From contig NZ_CALFBQ010000027.1 of the NCBI RefSeq assembly GCF_937951745.1, forward strand, positions 1 to 64,000: a stretch of DNA of 64,000 nucleotides, in the 5' to 3' direction. Of this stretch, positions 4,053 to 22,112 are shown in pieces. Position 1 is the stretch's first letter. Every line of letters starts with the position of its first letter. The notes below the pieces were generated by a model that saw only the letters and a list, made by a program, of their open reading frames with translations, was not told where the DNA came from and searched no databases. The stretch comes from an uncultured Chloroflexus sp. GTDB taxonomy: Bacteria > Chloroflexota > Chloroflexia > Chloroflexales > Chloroflexaceae. Both the position numbers and the translations under genes were made by a program.

Positions 4053-4841
4053 ATGAACCAACCTCGTTCCTTTAATCTATCCGCTTTAACCGCGCCCTTC
4101 CGCGTGCTATGGGATACATTACGCGATTTGTTCGATGAGTTTCTGTTGCTGACACTGGCTAATATTATGTGGGCGGCGATGAGCGTGCCACTCTTTAGTA
4201 TTGCCTATGTCGCCATGGTGAGCAACGCAGCGCTGCCGGCGGCAGCGGCGGCGCTGATTGGCGTTGGGCCAGCGGCCCCTGCGTTTGCCGGTTTGTACGT
4301 ACTGAGCAAACGGATTATAGAGGGACGGGCCAGTAAACTCAGCGACTTTTTTGCCGGGATGCGGGCTTATGCTGTGCCAGCATGGCGGCTGTACGGAGTA
4401 TGGATGGCCGGGTTGGTGTTGATTTTTTGGAATCTGGCCTTCTATGCTGGCGTTCCCGGCATCTTGGGCGGGGTACTGATCGGCTTTTTCCTTTACCTCT
4501 TTATGCTCTGGTCGGCGCTGATTATCTACGCCTTTCCGCTCATGGTGCTGATGGAACGGCCTTCGCTGAAGCAGATTGCGCGCAATGCACTGGTGATGAT
4601 TGTCAGCCGGCCAGTCTATACACTTGTAACCATGCTGCTGATGGGGTTCATCTTGATTCTGAGCAGTGTGGTGCTGCTGGTTCCCTTCTTGCTCTTTGCG
4701 GTTGCGCTGCTGGCGCTGTGGAGCACGCGGGCCACCCAGTTTCTGATTGACGAAGCGCGGGCGCGACAAGCCGCGGCTGCCGCCGAAACGGTGCCGCCGG
4801 CGGAAGAGCGGGGCCGGCGCGGGCAGGTGCGGCCTAAGTGA
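4053..4841 (+). CDS. DUF624/YesL-like membrane protein
   Basis: A polytopic inner-membrane protein of about 262 residues with five or six hydrophobic helices: near residues 30-60, 65-85, 110-135, 140-170 and 190-225. The N-terminal segment with LRDLFDEFLLLTLANIMW and the amphipathic LSDFFAGMRAY stretch resemble the YesL/DUF624 group, often found near carbohydrate uptake systems in Gram-positives; here no such neighbours exist. The C-terminal tail (RARQAAAAAET...RRGQVRPK) is charged and probably cytoplasmic. Start is either GTG 4050 or ATG 4053. Role unknown. Confidence 0.75.
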   Translation: MNQPRSFNLSALTAPFRVLWDTLRDLFDEFLLLTLANIMWAAMSVPLFSIAYVAMVSNAALPAAAAALIGVGPAAPAFAGLYVLSKRIIEGRASKLSDFFAGMRAYAVPAWRLYGVWMAGLVLIFWNLAFYAGVPGILGGVLIGFFLYLFMLWSALIIYAFPLMVLMERPSLKQIARNALVMIVSRPVYTLVTMLLMGFILILSSVVLLVPFLLFAVALLALWSTRATQFLIDEARARQAAAAAETVPPAEERGRRGQVRPK

Positions 4842-4843
4842 TG

Positions 4844-4906
4844 ACGCAAAGGCGCAAAGGATGGTAAATGCAAAGGCGCGAAGATCGCAAAGCACGCAAA
4901 GAGTTT
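4844..4906 (+). repeat. GCAAAGG-rich dispersed repeat
   Basis: Short units of the form CGCAAAGGCGCAAAGG recur through this 60-base patch between a membrane-protein gene and hisF. The same unit type occurs in opposite orientation at 59374-59417. This kind of GCAAAG-rich repeat is widespread in intergenic DNA of several phyla. It contains no gene. Confidence 0.65.
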
Positions 4907-4993
4907 GTTAATGTTATGATGCGCTGCCGGTGAGGCAAGAAGACGGTGCCGCTCAGCGGTCAAGGGTGCGTCAACACAAAGGCGATAGATAGT

Positions 4994-5773
4994 ATGTTAA
5001 CGCGACGGATTATACCTTGTCTTGATGTGAAGGCCGGGCGCGTGGTGAAGGGGGTCAAATTTCTCAACCACCGCGACGCCGGTGATCCGGTGGCGTTAGC
5101 GGCGGCCTATAATGCCGCCGGCGCCGATGAGTTGGTCTTCTACGATATTACCGCCTCGAGCGACGAGCGAGCGATCATGGTAGACGTGGTCGAACGCACC
5201 GCTGCCGAGGTATTTATTCCGCTAACGGTCGGTGGTGGCTTGCGCAGCGTCGAGGATATGTACCGGATGCTGCGGGCCGGCGCCGATAAGGTGAGCTTAA
5301 ACACGGCTGCAGTCTACAACCCGAACCTGATAGCCGAAGGCGCACGGCGGTTCGGCAGTCAATGCATTGTGCTGTCGGTCGATGCCAAACGGGTGAACGC
5401 ACCCGACGAACCGCCGCGCTGGGAAGTCTTTACCCACACCGGCGCGAACCCGCGCCCAACCGGCCTCGACGCGATCGAGTGGATCAAGCGCGGGATCGAT
5501 CTTGGCGCAGGTGAAATCTGCATCAACAGCATGGATGCTGACGGCGCGCGCACCGGCTACGATCTCGCACTGCTGCAAGCGATCACCACCATTTCACCGG
5601 TGCCGGTAATTGCGTCGGGCGGGGTTGGATCGCCGCACGATATGTACCGCGGGATTGTCGAAGGCGGCGCTGACGCAGTACTGGCGGCCTCGATCTTCCA
5701 CTTTGGCGACTATTCAGTCGCCGATGTCAAGCAGTATTTGGCTGAACACGGCGTCCCCGTGCGACGAACGTAG
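4994..5773 (+). CDS. hisF: imidazole glycerol phosphate synthase subunit HisF
   Basis: A 259-residue (beta/alpha)8 barrel, the normal HisF length when started at the ATG at 4994; the upstream in-frame ATG at 4946 adds 16 residues unlike the family. The two catalytic aspartates are present: D11 in CLDVKAG and D130 in LSVDAKR. Phosphate-binding loops VGGGLRS and ASGGVGS are intact. With HisH it converts PRFAR and glutamine-derived ammonia into IGP and AICAR in histidine synthesis, in the cytoplasm. No other his gene is adjacent, so the pathway is dispersed. The stop is a TAG, one of many normal amber terminators in this window. Confidence 0.96.
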
Positions 5774-5802
5774 GGCCATTGCGGCACAATGTTCCTACGG
5801 CG

Positions 5803-7785
5803 TCACGACACACCGATTAACGCCACCGCATCGATCTCGCTCCAACTGCCATCACGCTGGTCAAGCGTGATCCGTGCGCCAACAATCCGGGTGAGGGTCT
5901 GCTCAAACGTGATCGTGAGCGCAAACGGGCACTCAGACAGCGGGACAGGATCGGCGCGGTGAACCACCTTGGCCGTGCCTTGTTCGTCAATCAGTTCGAC
6001 CAGCGTGATGTAGCCGGGTTGGTAGTTCTGGTAGATGATCAAGCCGGTGGCGAAGACCGGTTCGGCAAAGGTGACGGTCAGCGTCTCGCGGCTGCCGGGA
6101 GTCGCCGGTGCCCACGCATTCGGGCTGTCTTGGCACTCTGGCACATCGGGCGGGCCAACCACGCCGCTGGGGTCGTAATCGGGCGCATAGAAGCTGCTGG
6201 CCGTAGCAGACGCCACCCACTGCTGCACCGTCTCGCTCGGCGGCGCTTCAGCGACCGGCGTGAGCGCCATTGCCGTTGCGAGGGCCGCAGCGTCGGTTTG
6301 TAAGCGAAACGCAGTCACCGCACTGTATTCACCGCTATTGTCACTCACCCAAACCACGCCACCGGGAGCGACGACAATCCCGTTGGGCAAGCTCAACTCG
6401 CCGGGGTTTGGAATGCTGCCGGGTGCAGCCGGTGCGCCGCCGCGAGCCACAATCGTACCGTCAGGAGCAAGCCGCAGAATCGTACCAGCATAGGTAGCAA
6501 GGTAGAGATAGCCGGCGCGGTCGATATCAAGCACCGGCCCGGCCAGTTGGGCAGGATCGGCGGGATCACCCCAACGGGCTAGCACGCTGCCATCAGGGGC
6601 CAATTTGACGATTGCGCCGGCAAAACTCTCGGCCAGATAGATCACGCCGCTGCGATCCACCACTAAATCCGCAGGCGCCAGATCAGGCGGCAAGGCAATC
6701 CGTTCCATCAACCGGCCTTCGGCGCTAAAGCGGACAATACTGCTAGCCGCCAAACCATCGGGACCGGGGCGGGCATCCAGCGCGTACACGCTGCCATCAG
6801 CACCGACAGCGATCCGTTGCGGCGCCGACAGGCCAAACTGGTCGGGCGCATCGCCGTGACCGCCCCACCGGCCTAGAAAGTCGCCAGCGGCGCTGAAGCG
6901 AACAATTGCGTTGCGTCCGTAATCAGCGACGTAGAGATCACCACTGGGGCCAAGCGCAACATCGTAAGCGTCGAGCAATTCATCGGCGCCGAAGGTGGTA
7001 CGCAGCGTGCCATCAGGGGCAAAGACCCAAATCCCGCGCCCGCTTTCAGCGAGATAGAGCGTGCCATCGGGCGCTGCCGCCAGCCCGCGCGCGGCGACAA
7101 ACCGGCTATTGGCCGGGCCGCTGCGACCACCCAGCCGCAGCACAAACCCCGGCGGCCCCGAACGCACAATTTGCGGCTGGGCAGCTACATCAACTAGCGT
7201 CGGGGTAGGGGTAAGCAACGGCAACACCTCCAGCGAAGCCACGATCCGTTCAATGAGCGGTTGTTCAGTTTCCCAGTTGGCGGCTGCCGCTTGAGCCAAC
7301 ACGCGCACCACCCGCATCTCATCAACTAACACCCACAATCGTCCGGCACTGGCCGGACTGCTGAGGTTGGCGGCCACCCCTTGGGCTGCACCGATCTGCA
7401 CCGCTTGGGTAGGGGAGATCGTGTAGCCAGCCGACTGGATCGCGCTGCTCGCCAGCTCAAACACCGTCTCTGGGTTTGCCGCCGCTGGGCCGTATTGTGC
7501 GGTCAGCGCCGCCAATGGCGTCGTATCGAGCACAATCACCGGCGCATCGATCACGCCAGCCGCAAGGGCAGCCGCGTTAGGCGCAATGCGCAGCGCGCCG
7601 CTTTCCACCCGACTCTGCCATCCATCCGGCAGGAGCAATTGTACGCCGAGTTCGGTAAACATTACTTCATTCAGCACGATTACCGTCGGGCTTGGCGTCA
7701 CTGGTGCCGGCGTTGGCGACGGCGGCGCGGCACAAGCAGCGATCAGATTGGTGAGCAGCAATGCGATAAGCAGAGGTAAACGCAT
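5803..7785 (-). CDS. NHL beta-propeller lipoprotein
   Basis: A 660-residue exported protein. The signal peptide ends in the lipobox LIAAC (Cys18), followed by a Pro/Thr-rich spacer. Residues about 40-190 form a PsbP/DUF1795-like domain (GVQLLLPDGWQSRV...). About residues 215-490 hold five or six NHL-type propeller blades, seen as repeated GxLYVADxGRNAIVRFSAxG patterns. The last 120 residues look like a discoidin-like beta-sandwich (ESGWAPA...LTVTFAEPVFATGLIIYQN), giving a likely ligand-binding tip. AAGGA six bases before the ATG supports the start. It probably sits on the outer face of the membrane and binds sugar or protein; the ligand is unknown. It converges with hisF. Confidence 0.85.
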   Translation of the reverse strand: MRLPLLIALLLTNLIAACAAPPSPTPAPVTPSPTVIVLNEVMFTELGVQLLLPDGWQSRVESGALRIAPNAAALAAGVIDAPVIVLDTTPLAALTAQYGPAAANPETVFELASSAIQSAGYTISPTQAVQIGAAQGVAANLSSPASAGRLWVLVDEMRVVRVLAQAAAANWETEQPLIERIVASLEVLPLLTPTPTLVDVAAQPQIVRSGPPGFVLRLGGRSGPANSRFVAARGLAAAPDGTLYLAESGRGIWVFAPDGTLRTTFGADELLDAYDVALGPSGDLYVADYGRNAIVRFSAAGDFLGRWGGHGDAPDQFGLSAPQRIAVGADGSVYALDARPGPDGLAASSIVRFSAEGRLMERIALPPDLAPADLVVDRSGVIYLAESFAGAIVKLAPDGSVLARWGDPADPAQLAGPVLDIDRAGYLYLATYAGTILRLAPDGTIVARGGAPAAPGSIPNPGELSLPNGIVVAPGGVVWVSDNSGEYSAVTAFRLQTDAAALATAMALTPVAEAPPSETVQQWVASATASSFYAPDYDPSGVVGPPDVPECQDSPNAWAPATPGSRETLTVTFAEPVFATGLIIYQNYQPGYITLVELIDEQGTAKVVHRADPVPLSECPFALTITFEQTLTRIVGARITLDQRDGSWSEIDAVALIGVS

Positions 7786-8079
7786 GCCGGTTCCTTAACT
7801 ATAAGCAATATGCAACGATGCTACCAGTAGATATACCACAGTCGCCGCAGGGTGATGATCACTGCGTCGGCAAAGGGTATGACAACATTGCAAGCCGAAC
7901 TGTCACGCCATTAACGTGAAGGTTATACCGGCCCGTTATACTCAACGCAGCAAGCTGGCATGTTTGAAGATCACCTGCTCAGCGGCATCATAACGATCAT
8001 CCGCATCGCCAGTATGACATTAATCAAACGACCATCAAGAGAACGGTCAAACGAGCCTATAGGCATGAGAGGATCAGGC

Positions 8080-9174
8080 GTGAAACAGGTCTTGCTCGCT
8101 GTCGCCGGAGTCATCCCTGCTGACCTTGAACAACAGATCGCAGCCGGACGTCGTCCACGCGCCGACTATCTTGAGCTAGCCCGCTACTGTGAGGCCGATC
8201 TCATTGACTACCGCATTGCTCACGCCGATAGTGGCATTGTTGGTCATCTCTGCGCGCAGTTGGGCGGGCCACACCTTGTGCTGGCGTTGGCCTGTTTTAT
8301 GCGCCGCCATCACTATCAGGCCATTGTGACCAGCAACGAACAGGTTGGTCTGCTGCTCACGGCCCTGCTCAAGCTCTTTAGTCTCAACCGCCGCCCGCGC
8401 CATCTCATACTAGGTCATCAATTATCCAATCCGAAGCATCAGGCGGTTTTTGATCGGCTTGGCGTTCAGAGCCACATTGACCGGCTGATCGTTGACTCAG
8501 CGTGGCCGCAACGCTTCATCAGCAAACGCCGGCAAATACCGCCGCAGCGGGCGCCATACCTACCGGCAGCAGTTGACGAACAATTCTTTCACCCGCGCCA
8601 CGCGCCACCGCGTCCCACGGTACGGCCACAGATCGGCGTGGTTGGTTTCAAACAGACCGATTACCACACCCTCCTGCGTGCAGTCGCCAAGCTTCACAGC
8701 GATGTCGTCGTGGCCGCTGCCGACCCATGGTTTACCCACCGTGACAGTAAGGGAATGCATCCGCTCCCGCCTAACGTGCGCGTGCAAACATTTACCCCTC
8801 TCGAATTACGTCAATTCTACCGCGATAGCCGGTTTGTAGTCATACTGCTCGAACCGGCAGATGTGCAGATTGGCAGTCGCGCCATCCTCGAAGCGATGGC
8901 GATGGAACGTGCGGTTATCTGTACGCGCATCACCGGTCAAAGTGACCTTGTTGTCGATGGTGCAAGCGGAATCTATGTACCGCCGCGCGATCCGGCAGCA
9001 TTGCGTGCCGCAATTGAACAACTACTGGCCGAACCGGGCAGGGCGGAGCGGATGGGACGTATGGGGCGGCAGATCGTTGAACAAAGGCTGAGTCTTGATC
9101 ACTATACCAGCCGTATGACCGATATCTTGTACGAAGCGTTGGCCGAAGCCGGCGTTGAGCCAGCGCCCAAGTAG
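8080..9174 (+). CDS. glycosyltransferase family 4-like (GT-B fold)
   Basis: The C-terminal half is typical of GT4-type transferases: IGVVGFKQTDYH, a fingertip loop, then IGSRAILEAMAMERAVICT with the conserved E(x7)E-type donor site, and the closing GIYVPPRDPAALRAAIEQLL. The GTG at 8080 is chosen because AGAGGA lies seven bases upstream and the protein then opens with KQVLLAVAGVIP, a natural first strand of a Rossmann half. Earlier in-frame starts at 7960, 8014 and 8065 lack ribosome sites. A TATACT at 7937-7942 may be the -10 box. It lacks membrane helices and is likely a cytoplasmic or peripheral enzyme; donor and acceptor are unknown. Confidence 0.85.
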   Translation: MKQVLLAVAGVIPADLEQQIAAGRRPRADYLELARYCEADLIDYRIAHADSGIVGHLCAQLGGPHLVLALACFMRRHHYQAIVTSNEQVGLLLTALLKLFSLNRRPRHLILGHQLSNPKHQAVFDRLGVQSHIDRLIVDSAWPQRFISKRRQIPPQRAPYLPAAVDEQFFHPRHAPPRPTVRPQIGVVGFKQTDYHTLLRAVAKLHSDVVVAAADPWFTHRDSKGMHPLPPNVRVQTFTPLELRQFYRDSRFVVILLEPADVQIGSRAILEAMAMERAVICTRITGQSDLVVDGASGIYVPPRDPAALRAAIEQLLAEPGRAERMGRMGRQIVEQRLSLDHYTSRMTDILYEALAEAGVEPAPK

Positions 9175-9462
9175 CAGGAGCAATCGTAACATCGCTCGAT
9201 CAATCCATCGGCAGCAGAAAGACGAGCCAACTCGCTCGATCCAACGGCTAGCACCGGTGTATACTACAGCCAATGCAGACTGGCATTGCAAGACCGAGGC
9301 GCGGGATGATGCCAGAACAGGAGATGAATCGCCTGCGCTGGAGCCTAAGCGACTCGCTAGGCACAAGCCGCCCGCTGCCAGATGACAGACGCCGCCTCCC
9401 GCCATTGCAATCTGACCCGGCGTCGATCACGATAGGCCTGAAGCACATAGAGGAAAATGATC

Positions 9463-19465: not shown

Positions 19466-20308
19466 TCACACCACCAATTCCATCCCCTCTGCTGCCGCGG
19501 CCACCTGTAGCGGGCTATCCTGAGCTGCGAGCTCGGCGCGGAGACGGATGACCATCGCATCAAGTTCATCGTCGGTGCGAGTAGGCGCGTGGTGAAACAG
19601 CAACAACCGTTCGACGCCGGCAGCTTGGGCCACTTCAATCGCGTCTTCGATCCGGCTATGGCCGTAGTCTTCTACTTGTTCGGCGCGCAAATAGGGTGCG
19701 CTATGGATAAGTATGTGCGCATGACGCGCAAACGCGATCGCCTCCGCGCGGATACTCTCTTCATTATAGCGCACATCGGTCATATAGACTAGCACCCGGC
19801 CCTCTTCTTCCAAGCGATAGGCCCAGATCGGCGAATGCTGGCGGCGCGAGAGGGGTAGGGCGCGCACCAGCAAGCGACCGATCATAAACGGTTCGGTTGA
19901 GATAGTGGTGAAACGGTGCGTTGCACCGATGTGCGCCAGACCGTAAACCGGTGAGTAGACTGGCGAGAGCATCCCGTCATACACCATCTGCAACGAGCCG
20001 CGCGTGCTGTCAGGGCCATAAATATCGAGTCGATTGCCGGGAATATGCACCACACCGGGGAAGGGCAAACCGAGAATATGGTCCCAATACGTATGGCTGA
20101 TGAGCAGCGTCAGGGTACCGCGTCCACGGCCAAACTCACCCTGCATCAACTCATCGCCCAGCATACAGAAGCCGGTGCCGGTATCAAGCACGACTAATTC
20201 GCCATGATCGCCCGTGACGGCAGTGCAGCAGGTATTGCCGCCGTACCGCAGCATAGCGGCGTGCGGCGTCGGCACGTAGCCGCGCACCCCCCAAAACCGC
20301 ACCTTCAT
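19466..20308 (-). CDS. metallo-beta-lactamase-fold protein, degenerate active site
   Basis: A 280-residue paralogue of the gene just upstream (MKVRFWGVRGYVPTPHAAMLRYGGNT against MRVRIWGTRGSYPVAHASMLRYGGNT). The metal motif HxHxDH reads H72-T-Y74-W-D76-H77, so the second His is Tyr. The bridging Asp of the partner (LIYDAQF) is Ser here (LIHSAPY), and FHHDP is FHHAP. Loss of at least two metal ligands suggests a pseudoenzyme. The ATG overlaps the upstream stop in ATGA, giving coupled expression, and the stop-proximal GAGGAA of the upstream gene is its ribosome site. It may regulate or pair with the active copy. Confidence 0.85.
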   Translation of the reverse strand: MKVRFWGVRGYVPTPHAAMLRYGGNTCCTAVTGDHGELVVLDTGTGFCMLGDELMQGEFGRGRGTLTLLISHTYWDHILGLPFPGVVHIPGNRLDIYGPDSTRGSLQMVYDGMLSPVYSPVYGLAHIGATHRFTTISTEPFMIGRLLVRALPLSRRQHSPIWAYRLEEEGRVLVYMTDVRYNEESIRAEAIAFARHAHILIHSAPYLRAEQVEDYGHSRIEDAIEVAQAAGVERLLLFHHAPTRTDDELDAMVIRLRAELAAQDSPLQVAAAAEGMELVV

Positions 20309-21210
20309 GGCTTCCTCCACAACTCCATGCCTTCAAAGGCTGCCGTCACCAACAATCCCGGCGCGGCCAACACTTGCTGTTCAGCCACAATCCGATCCAG
20401 TTCCTCATCGGTGCGATGAGGATCGTGGTGAAACAAGATCAACTGGCGCACCTGCGCCTCTTCAGCGATTTCGCGGGCTTGGGTTGCGCTGCTATGCCCC
20501 CAATGCGGAAAGCGCGCGTATTGGGCATCGGTGAATTGGGCATCGTAAATGAGCCAATCAGCGCGGTAGGCCAATTCAAGAATTGCCGCTTTCATCGCTG
20601 CTAATTCGCGCAATTCACTCTGGCTACGCGCCGTAGGTTGGCCAGTCCACTCAATTCGCTCCTCGCCGAAGAGCACCGTATGGAAGGGGCCGGTATCGGG
20701 AATAAAGGTCAGCACGCCATCGGACGTTTCTAGCCGGTAAGCGAGCGCGCGGTACGGATGGTTGGCGAGCGCCGTGCGCACCTGTACCGGGCCCAATTCA
20801 AAGCAGTGCCCGGCGCCAATTTCAAAAAAGTTAATCTGCGCGCGCAAATCATCCATATTCAGCGGCAACAGCGGATCACTCAACGCACCGGCCAACGTGG
20901 TGCGCAAACTCGACTGCGTGCGGGCCAAGCCATAAATATCGAGTTTCAAATCGGGATCAAACAGGGGTGCAAAGAACGGAAAACCTATGATATGATCCCA
21001 ATGGGTATGGGTAATCAAGAGATCGAGTTGCCGTGGCACTTGCTCTTGAGCAAACGAATCGCCTAACATCCGCAGGCCAGTGCCGGCATCGAGAATAATA
21101 TGGCGCCCTTCCGCCACTACCTCCACACAGGTAGTATTCCCGCCATACCGCAGCATACTGGCGTGGGCAACTGGATACGAGCCGCGCGTGCCCCAGATAC
21201 GAACTCTCAT
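20305..21210 (-). CDS. metallo-beta-lactamase-fold hydrolase
   Basis: A 301-residue MBL-fold protein related to the CheY-associated/RNase Z-like group of open-loop hydrolases. The metal motif THTHWDH (H68, H70, D72, H73) is complete; D in LIYDAQFTDAQY and H in LILFHHDPHRTDEEL supply later ligands. The start at MRVRIWGTRGS is chosen because homologous paralogue starts there; the longer frame to 21279 adds 23 residues with no family match. It is first of a two-gene operon with a degenerate copy. Substrate is unknown; phosphodiester or lactone hydrolysis are possibilities. Confidence 0.88.
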   Translation of the reverse strand: MRVRIWGTRGSYPVAHASMLRYGGNTTCVEVVAEGRHIILDAGTGLRMLGDSFAQEQVPRQLDLLITHTHWDHIIGFPFFAPLFDPDLKLDIYGLARTQSSLRTTLAGALSDPLLPLNMDDLRAQINFFEIGAGHCFELGPVQVRTALANHPYRALAYRLETSDGVLTFIPDTGPFHTVLFGEERIEWTGQPTARSQSELRELAAMKAAILELAYRADWLIYDAQFTDAQYARFPHWGHSSATQAREIAEEAQVRQLILFHHDPHRTDEELDRIVAEQQVLAAPGLLVTAAFEGMELWRKP

Positions 21211-21359: not shown

Positions 21360-22112
21360 ATGGCTCGTTTTCGGGTTGGCGTACAACTCCATCCACAACA
21401 TACCACGTGGGAATCGTACCGTGATGCCGTGCGCTATGCCGAAGCGATCGGCTGCGATACGATCTGGAATTGGGATCACTTCTTTCCGCTTTATGGTCCG
21501 CCAGACGGCCCACACTTCGAGGGATGGACGCTCTTGACCGCGATGGCGACCATCACCCAGCGCGCCGAGATCGGCTGTTTGGTAACGTGCAACAGCTATC
21601 GTAATCCGGCGCTGCTCTCAAATATGGCCAAAACGGTTGATCATATCAGCGGGGGTCGGCTGATTCTTGGACTGGGTGCCGGCTGGTTTGAACGTGATTA
21701 TGCCGAGTTTGGCTATACCTTCGGCACTGCTGCCGATCGCTTGCGCGCGTTGCGCGAAGCATTGCCGATCATCAAAGCACGCTGGGAGGTCGATCAGCCG
21801 CCGCCACTGCGCCGCATCCCGATCTTGATCGGCGGCGGCGGTGAAAAAGTCACGCTGCGGATCACTGCGGAACACGCCGATATCTGGCACGGCTTCGGGC
21901 CGGTCGAAAACTTCAAGCGCAAGAATGAGGTTCTCAACCAGTGGTGCGCTCAGGTAGGCCGCGATCCAGCCACAATTGAGCGCAGCGTCTCACCGCGCGC
22001 AGGCGAGCCAATCGAGCCATACCTTGCAGCAGGCGCAACGCATATCATTATCGGTATGGGTGAGCCGTGGAACTTCGCGCCGGTGGAGGAGCTGCTCAAG
22101 CTGCGCGATTAA
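21360..22112 (+). CDS. LLM-class flavin/F420-dependent oxidoreductase
   Basis: A 250-residue luciferase-like TIM barrel. The signatures are [59 protein letters not shown] in outline, and [20 protein letters not shown], which is the cofactor-edge motif of F420/FMN-dependent LLM enzymes. The TIGR03560-type group is the closest I recognise by pattern. A ribosome site GAAAGG lies nine bases upstream of the ATG. The reaction and substrate cannot be told. The PPOX-fold protein at 23623-24012 is another possible F420 user. Confidence 0.87.

Follow-up and report, generated by a model that had tools for sequence, protein, structure and literature searches.

The window, meaning the whole 64,000-nucleotide stretch of DNA analysed here, carries on its minus strand two genes, c1 and c2, for related proteins of the metallo-β-lactamase (MBL) fold (Table 1). 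An initial annotation had described them as a coupled pair in which the second gene has lost metal ligands. Direct inspection of the sequence bears out the coordinates and strand of both genes and their ATGA overlap, and the motif pairs THTHWDH/SHTYWDH, LIYDAQF/LIHSAPY and FHHDP/FHHAP are all present as read. The two proteins are 38% identical, and both score above the gathering cut-off of 27 bits for PF12706 (Lactamase_B_2), c1 with 68.4 and c2 with 48.8 bits.

Table 1. Genes and features of the c1/c2 locus (window positions)
Feature	Position	Strand	Remarks
c1, MBL-fold hydrolase, 301 aa	20305..21210	minus	start ATG at 21210; coordinates include stop
c2, degenerate MBL-fold partner, 280 aa	19466..20308	minus	
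ATGA, overlap of c2 start codon and c1 stop codon	20305..20308	minus	
GGAGG, ribosome-binding-like site for c2, within the end of c1	20314..20318	minus	sequence
c2 HTYWDH motif, residues 72-77	20078..20095	minus	
c2 loop S115-Y122 (SPVYSPVY) with invariant Y118, candidate trans-acting loop	19943..19966	minus	
c1 stretch 3' of the bridging Asp, residues 173-216, with insert absent from c2	20563..20694	minus	

The counts below refer to an alignment of 30 c1 and 30 c2 sequences from 33 pairs (those of genomes G062, G063 and G064 stand outside the counts); contig ends cut one c1 (L004) and one c2 (L022) in this set. The genes are adjacent in 30/30 pairs, with a spacing of -4 in 23, -1 in five and +2 in two, and a Shine-Dalgarno-like 4- or 5-mer lies no more than 18 nt upstream of c2 in 23 pairs. 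Promoter and terminator scans of the locus gave no clear element. Upstream of c1 and divergent from it, at 21360-22112 of the window, lies a gene for an F420-dependent LLM-class (luciferase-like) oxidoreductase (TIGR03856, 401 bits), found in the same arrangement in 22 of 28 named loci. A GTPase gene, presumably RsgA-like, lies convergently downstream of the pair in 14 of the 16 loci examined. These two neighbours gave no functional hint for c1 or c2.

Metal ligands and conserved acids

The ligand set of c1 is complete (H68, H70, D72, H73, H151, D172 and H261, plus H239), and all seven MBL ligands (HxHxDH, the motif-III His, the motif-IV Asp and the motif-V His) occur in 30/30 c1. For comparison, we gathered 55 other relatives from across the phylum, comprising 25 from the class (one truncated) and the best 30 loci from 400 genomes; 54 of these keep the seven-ligand set, the exception being the truncated one. 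The set deviates in 29 of the 30 c2, that of the window included, and for the remaining one (L029) the outcome varies with the alignment of the motif-III loop. Ligand loss in c2 is thus more than chance would produce, and by sequence the window pair consists of one protein with a complete metal site and one without.

In the c2 of the window, Tyr at residue 74 replaces the second His, S203 and A241 each replace an Asp, and H72, D76, H77, D178, H217 and H239 are retained. Loss of the second His, as first proposed, holds for this protein and for 26 of the 30 c2, but His is still there in the other four; among orthologues searched for restored residues these four have the His, while the Ser and the Ala are never reversed (30/30). 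The Asp of LIYDAQF, which the initial annotation called bridging, proves not to be the bridging metal ligand. By motif it corresponds to the acid in the HEAT motif of RNase BN, which we take to be E232, and the true bridging Asp lies in FIPDTGP of c1 (D172), the counterpart of what is presumably D212 in FGDTGP of E. coli RNase BN. This match was made on the DTGP motif, since in the MAFFT alignment the flexible arm of RNase BN throws its bridging Asp out of place. We also assume the division of the MBL ligands between site 1 and site 2. Motif roles were assigned after RNase Z, as given in passages of PMC2942849, and the description of RNase J1 in part of PMC7864078 agrees with the site 1 assignment.

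The other ligand positions of c2 are largely intact: the first His is kept in 28/30 (Gln once, Ser once), the Asp and third His of HxHxDH in 30/30 each, the bridging Asp (YMTD) in 29/30 (His in one), the motif-V His in 29/30 (Gln in one) and the GHS-motif His in 28/30. The motif-III His (H151 of c1) is absent from its column, a position that shifts between alignments. The next residue is His in 22/30, Asn in three, Ala in two and Gln, Cys and Asp once each, so that c2 has probably, though not certainly, lost this ligand function. All four site-2 ligands (D76, H77, D178 and H239) are present in 28/30 c2, and what c2 has lost is mainly ligands of metal site 1 together with two conserved acids. 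The acid of the HEAT motif is Asp in 55/55 relatives and 30/30 c1 and Ser in 30/30 c2; the acid following HH is Asp or Glu in 53/55 relatives (one Arg, one gap) and Ala in 30/30 c2.

The four c2 that keep the second His (L027-L030) branch off deepest in the c2 clade, and they differ in their other ligands. L027 is without the first His, L028 without the first His and the bridging Asp (D to H), and L030 without the motif-V His (H to Q) and the GHS His. L029 is complete but for a clear motif-III His, which one alignment supplies as well, and the metal site of this early-branching protein may still be complete. Since both acids are gone from all 30 c2, deep branches included, and the ligand losses differ by lineage, the simplest reading would be that the acids disappeared first, already in the c2 ancestor, with the metal ligands following along several routes. 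The deep-branch sequences come from draft metagenome-assembled genomes (MAGs), in which single-letter errors are possible.

Distribution, selection and ancestry

Of 158 class genomes, 33 match the c2 profile (E below 1e-100) and the identical 33 match the c1 profile (E below 1e-140), so that the two genes are never found apart; confinement of the pair to this strain is thereby ruled out. All carriers belong to one family (f1), from which 41 genomes were sampled. Six of its eight genomes without both genes are less than 90% complete (G009, G014, G016, G022, G031 and G061), and two (G021 and G024) are not. In a collection of species genomes, two c2 patterns yielded 28 loci among 49 pattern matches, 27 of them with Chloroflexota titles and one titled as a Gracilibacteria MAG. 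The latter (L062, JAAUTF010000037.1, Candidatus Gracilibacteria) has a Chloroflexales c1/c2 locus with its neighbours, and the bin is probably mislabelled or mixed. The genome of the window resembles Chloroflexus, and the named loci nearest to the window pair are those of a Chloroflexota MAG (96%), C. islandicus (93%) and Chloroflexus MAGs. A link to phototrophy was considered and rejected: PF00124 reaction-centre genes are present in 64/158 genomes, including seven of the eight f1 genomes without the pair, and many genomes of another family, f4, have PF00124 yet no c1/c2.

Median dN/dS is 0.041 for c1 and 0.051 for c2 (Nei-Gojobori, 21 pairs of seven Chloroflexus genomes, L004 excluded), values that are only rough because dS is saturated, near 1.9. 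Purifying selection acts on c2 as on c1. The c2 reading frame is open in all 30, and 129 of its 280 positions are identical in 28 or more of the 30 sequences; conservation reaches 45/71 positions in the pocket loops (picked by homology by the analyst) versus 84/209 elsewhere. C48 and P205 of c2 are invariant and absent from all 55 relatives, and H88 occurs in three of the 55. That selection maintains the putative enzyme and pseudoenzyme as a pair is well supported by their shared set of genomes, their unbroken adjacency and the low dN/dS of both. Mirror-tree distances of c1 and c2 correlate with r 0.903 (378 pairs, 28 genomes, the truncated L004 and L022 left out), but any two vertically inherited genes give such a value, which is therefore no evidence of contact.

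In trees, c1 forms one clade and c2 another. c1 groups with the HLHWDH relatives (SH-aLRT 81) and c2 falls elsewhere, on weak forks (16); forcing the two together costs only 1.2 log units, with a p-AU of 0.466 (tree of 10/30 c1, 10/30 c2, 16/25 class and 30/30 phylum relatives). In a tree with RNase BN as outgroup (16 c1, 16 c2, 25 relatives) the RNase BN end branch is five changes per column long, and for this reason the kinship of c1 and c2 was not judged from the root. That one copy arose from the other by duplication is neither shown nor rejected by these trees, and given the p-AU value the 'tandem copy' of the initial annotation is to be read as a tandem paralogue.

Fold, loop residue and possible joint function

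AlphaFold2 models give an MBL fold for both proteins (pLDDT 85.0 for c1, 84.2 for c2), and for both the best match by Z is RNase Z (E. coli, B. subtilis). Against 2cbn, c1 reaches Z 27.7 over 248 residues and c2 Z 26.0 over 242, each at 2.4 A; YhfI follows with Z 25.9 (c1) and 24.3 (c2). pLDDT falls below 50 at residues 115-121 of c2 and at 175-182 and 186-188 of c1, despite invariant residues there. The c1 insert region is conserved (PFHT, LF, W188, G190, P192); the insert follows motif IV, is also absent from most class relatives and has a shorter version in the peroxiredoxin fusions described below. Such conserved segments of low confidence (c2 115-121, c1 175-188) would fit segments ordered by a partner, although low pLDDT could also stem from shallow alignments (40 and 38 rows).

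A canonical RNase Z role for c1 found no support, with 76.6 bits (c2, 56.1) far under the TIGR02651 cut-off of 292.95 and no tRNase Z arm between motifs III and IV in either protein. Both also fall below the cut-off of 400 for the Rv1339-type phosphodiesterase model NF041851, with 59.4 (c1) and 27.7 bits (c2). The genome of the window holds no RNase Z match over the TIGR02651 cut-off, an absence that says little since five of 14 control genomes are equally without one; the frame that comes nearest, of 260 aa, lies at C18:31872-32555 (75 and 54 bits). The fold neighbours of c1 cut phosphodiesters. For c1 itself a phosphodiester would be the most likely substrate, with cyclic nucleotides among the candidates, although no other step of our explanation is as weak. 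Ten matches to the class III cyclase domain (PF00211), spread over eight reading frames of the genome, make cyclic nucleotides plausible, but nothing links these nucleotides to c1.

Among relatives, the fusions hint at signalling or stress. L039, from a relative within the same taxonomic order, encodes at 4754-9445 a 1563-aa protein in which an MBL domain (HTHWDH, FHHDP) is joined to STAS, protein kinase, AAA_16 and TPR domains. In a different family within the class, an AhpC/TSA-like peroxiredoxin is fused to a c1-like MBL domain (L099, 395-1861, minus strand), and L100-L103 have the same fusion, with Pfam confirmation for L099 only. Phage homologues of c1 are few, with 11 among 50,697 phage records at E up to 1 and a best identity of 26%.

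The position of c2 Y118 is Leu in 30/30 c1, which are of the HTHWDH type, and Tyr in 30/30 c2. It is aromatic in 29 of 30 HxHWDH relatives (Tyr in 16/17 HTHWDH, Phe in 10/10 HLHWDH, Tyr in 3/3 HYHWDH), Phe in the sole HFHPDH relative and Tyr in the sole HTHLDH relative; all 23 HxHHDH relatives have Ser, Thr, Asn, Ala, Val or Ile there, so the residue is dispensable in the family as a whole. Set against the aromatic HxHWDH relatives, the two proteins seem to divide metal site and loop Tyr between them, as would be expected if c1 kept the metals and c2 the loop. In the Apyc1 homodimer a residue of the opposing protomer, situated in this loop, is catalytic according to passages of PMC9117128, whose wording would fit one such residue or two. 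Counted from its second Met, which we believe to be the numbering of that source, BSP38 Apyc1 has Glu at residue 74 and Tyr at 112, in YSDTY; residues 118-122 of c2 read YSPVY. MAFFT sets Apyc1 Y116 opposite c2 Y118 and leaves Y112 in a gap, and only a shift of four residues joins YSDTY to YSPVY. Pairing Y118 with Y112 is no more than suggestive; their location in one and the same loop is firmer.

In these green filamentous phototrophs, Chloroflexus and its kin, sister genes that overlap, with c2 strongly conserved despite its lost catalytic residues, suggest joint work around one active site. We consider it moderately probable that c1 is a di-metal hydrolase like RNase Z and the class-II phosphodiesterases, that c2, translated from the same mRNA, is its dedicated pseudoenzyme partner, and that the two assemble as a heteromer with a single working active site, in c1. 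The heteromer itself we infer from homodimeric relatives, namely YhfI and Apyc1 (parts of PMC9293780 and PMC9117128) and, with RNase Z, all three (parts of PMC9117128 and PMC3714273); c1 and c2 would pair in the geometry of their subunits. The c2 loop, with Y118 and its neighbours, would be lent to the c1 active site in the manner of the opposing Apyc1 protomer, leaving c1 free to lose its own aromatic and c2 its metal site. A stronger form, in which reciprocal loss split an ancestral homodimeric phosphodiesterase into two obligate partners that build one active site across their interface and are inactive singly, we regard as somewhat unlikely. Co-inheritance and adjacency, for their part, would equally fit two separately acting proteins.

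Such independence is what we would expect if c2 were still an enzyme using one metal, at site 2, on a substrate of its own, cotranscribed with c1 but unbound to it. Class B2 β-lactamases work with site 2 alone. The retained site-2 ligands and the better conserved pocket loops speak for such a reading, and S. epidermidis RNase J2, with one metal and activity, offers a precedent (part of PMC7864078). The loss from every c2 of two acids that nearly all relatives keep, and of a site-2 ligand from L028 and L030, which retain the gene, make it an unlikely reading. If c2 were instead a regulator, its dead pocket would bind a small ligand, for instance a nucleotide, and tune c1 allosterically. Conserved pocket loops, a retained fold and the residues C48, P205 and H88 would suit that role; yet no ligand is named by any evidence and an interface explains the loops equally well, and we hold it to be distinctly improbable. 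It is hardly conceivable that c2 is a decaying copy heading for loss. Its ligand losses do vary among deep lineages, as under relaxed constraint on the metal site, but an open frame in 30/30, a dN/dS of about 0.05 within the genus, its 129 conserved positions and its presence wherever c1 is refute decay for the gene as a whole. The pseudoenzyme-partner interpretation is a fair lead, strengthened without proof.

If c1 and c2 act as enzyme and pseudoenzyme, they would represent a known theme in bacterial form. RNase J1/J2 of Firmicutes are likewise a bacterial pair of MBL paralogues, but they have a β-CASP fold, J2 is still active and, to our knowledge, their genes are not an overlapping pair. 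The phosphodiesterases Rv1339, YhfI, CpdA and phage Apyc1 share PF12706, the motif [T/S]HxHxDH and the fold, and differ in having one gene and two active subunits. MBL enzymes form heterodimers with MBL pseudoenzymes in CPSF73/CPSF100 and INTS11/INTS9 (parts of PMC7980224 and PMC4819959); these are β-CASP nucleases of eukaryotic RNA machines with C-terminal dimerisation domains, whereas c1 and c2 are too short for a β-CASP or such a domain. In the long form of tRNase Z (ELAC2, tRNase ZL) the metal-less of two RNase Z-like units serves the other, as described in part of PMC3714273. c1 and c2 resemble it in having two related RNase Z-like MBL units with a metal site in one only. Unlike this eukaryotic enzyme, a single fused chain with the dead unit first and a flexible arm, they are two bacterial genes, the active one first, and have no arm separating motif III from motif IV.

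Literature searches found nothing for Chloroflexus with the MBL fold, nothing beyond electrochemistry for Chloroflexus aurantiacus with cyclic AMP and phosphodiesterase, and eukaryotic cases only for MBL with pseudoenzyme and heterodimer; no comparable bacterial pair turned up in print, subscription literature lying mostly outside the search. MBL enzyme/pseudoenzyme pairs have so far come mainly from eukaryotic RNA processing, and c1/c2 would add a compact bacterial example of just two genes, in which the split between metal site and loop Tyr sharpens the theme. With deep branches that differ in their ligand losses, the order of decay may be readable here, making the pair a simple system on the transition from homodimer to obligate heterodimer. 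Other tandem MBL paralogues occur in a genome without c1/c2 (L109, 3-857 and 1040-1882, minus strand), where the upstream paralogue stops short of the motif-V His.
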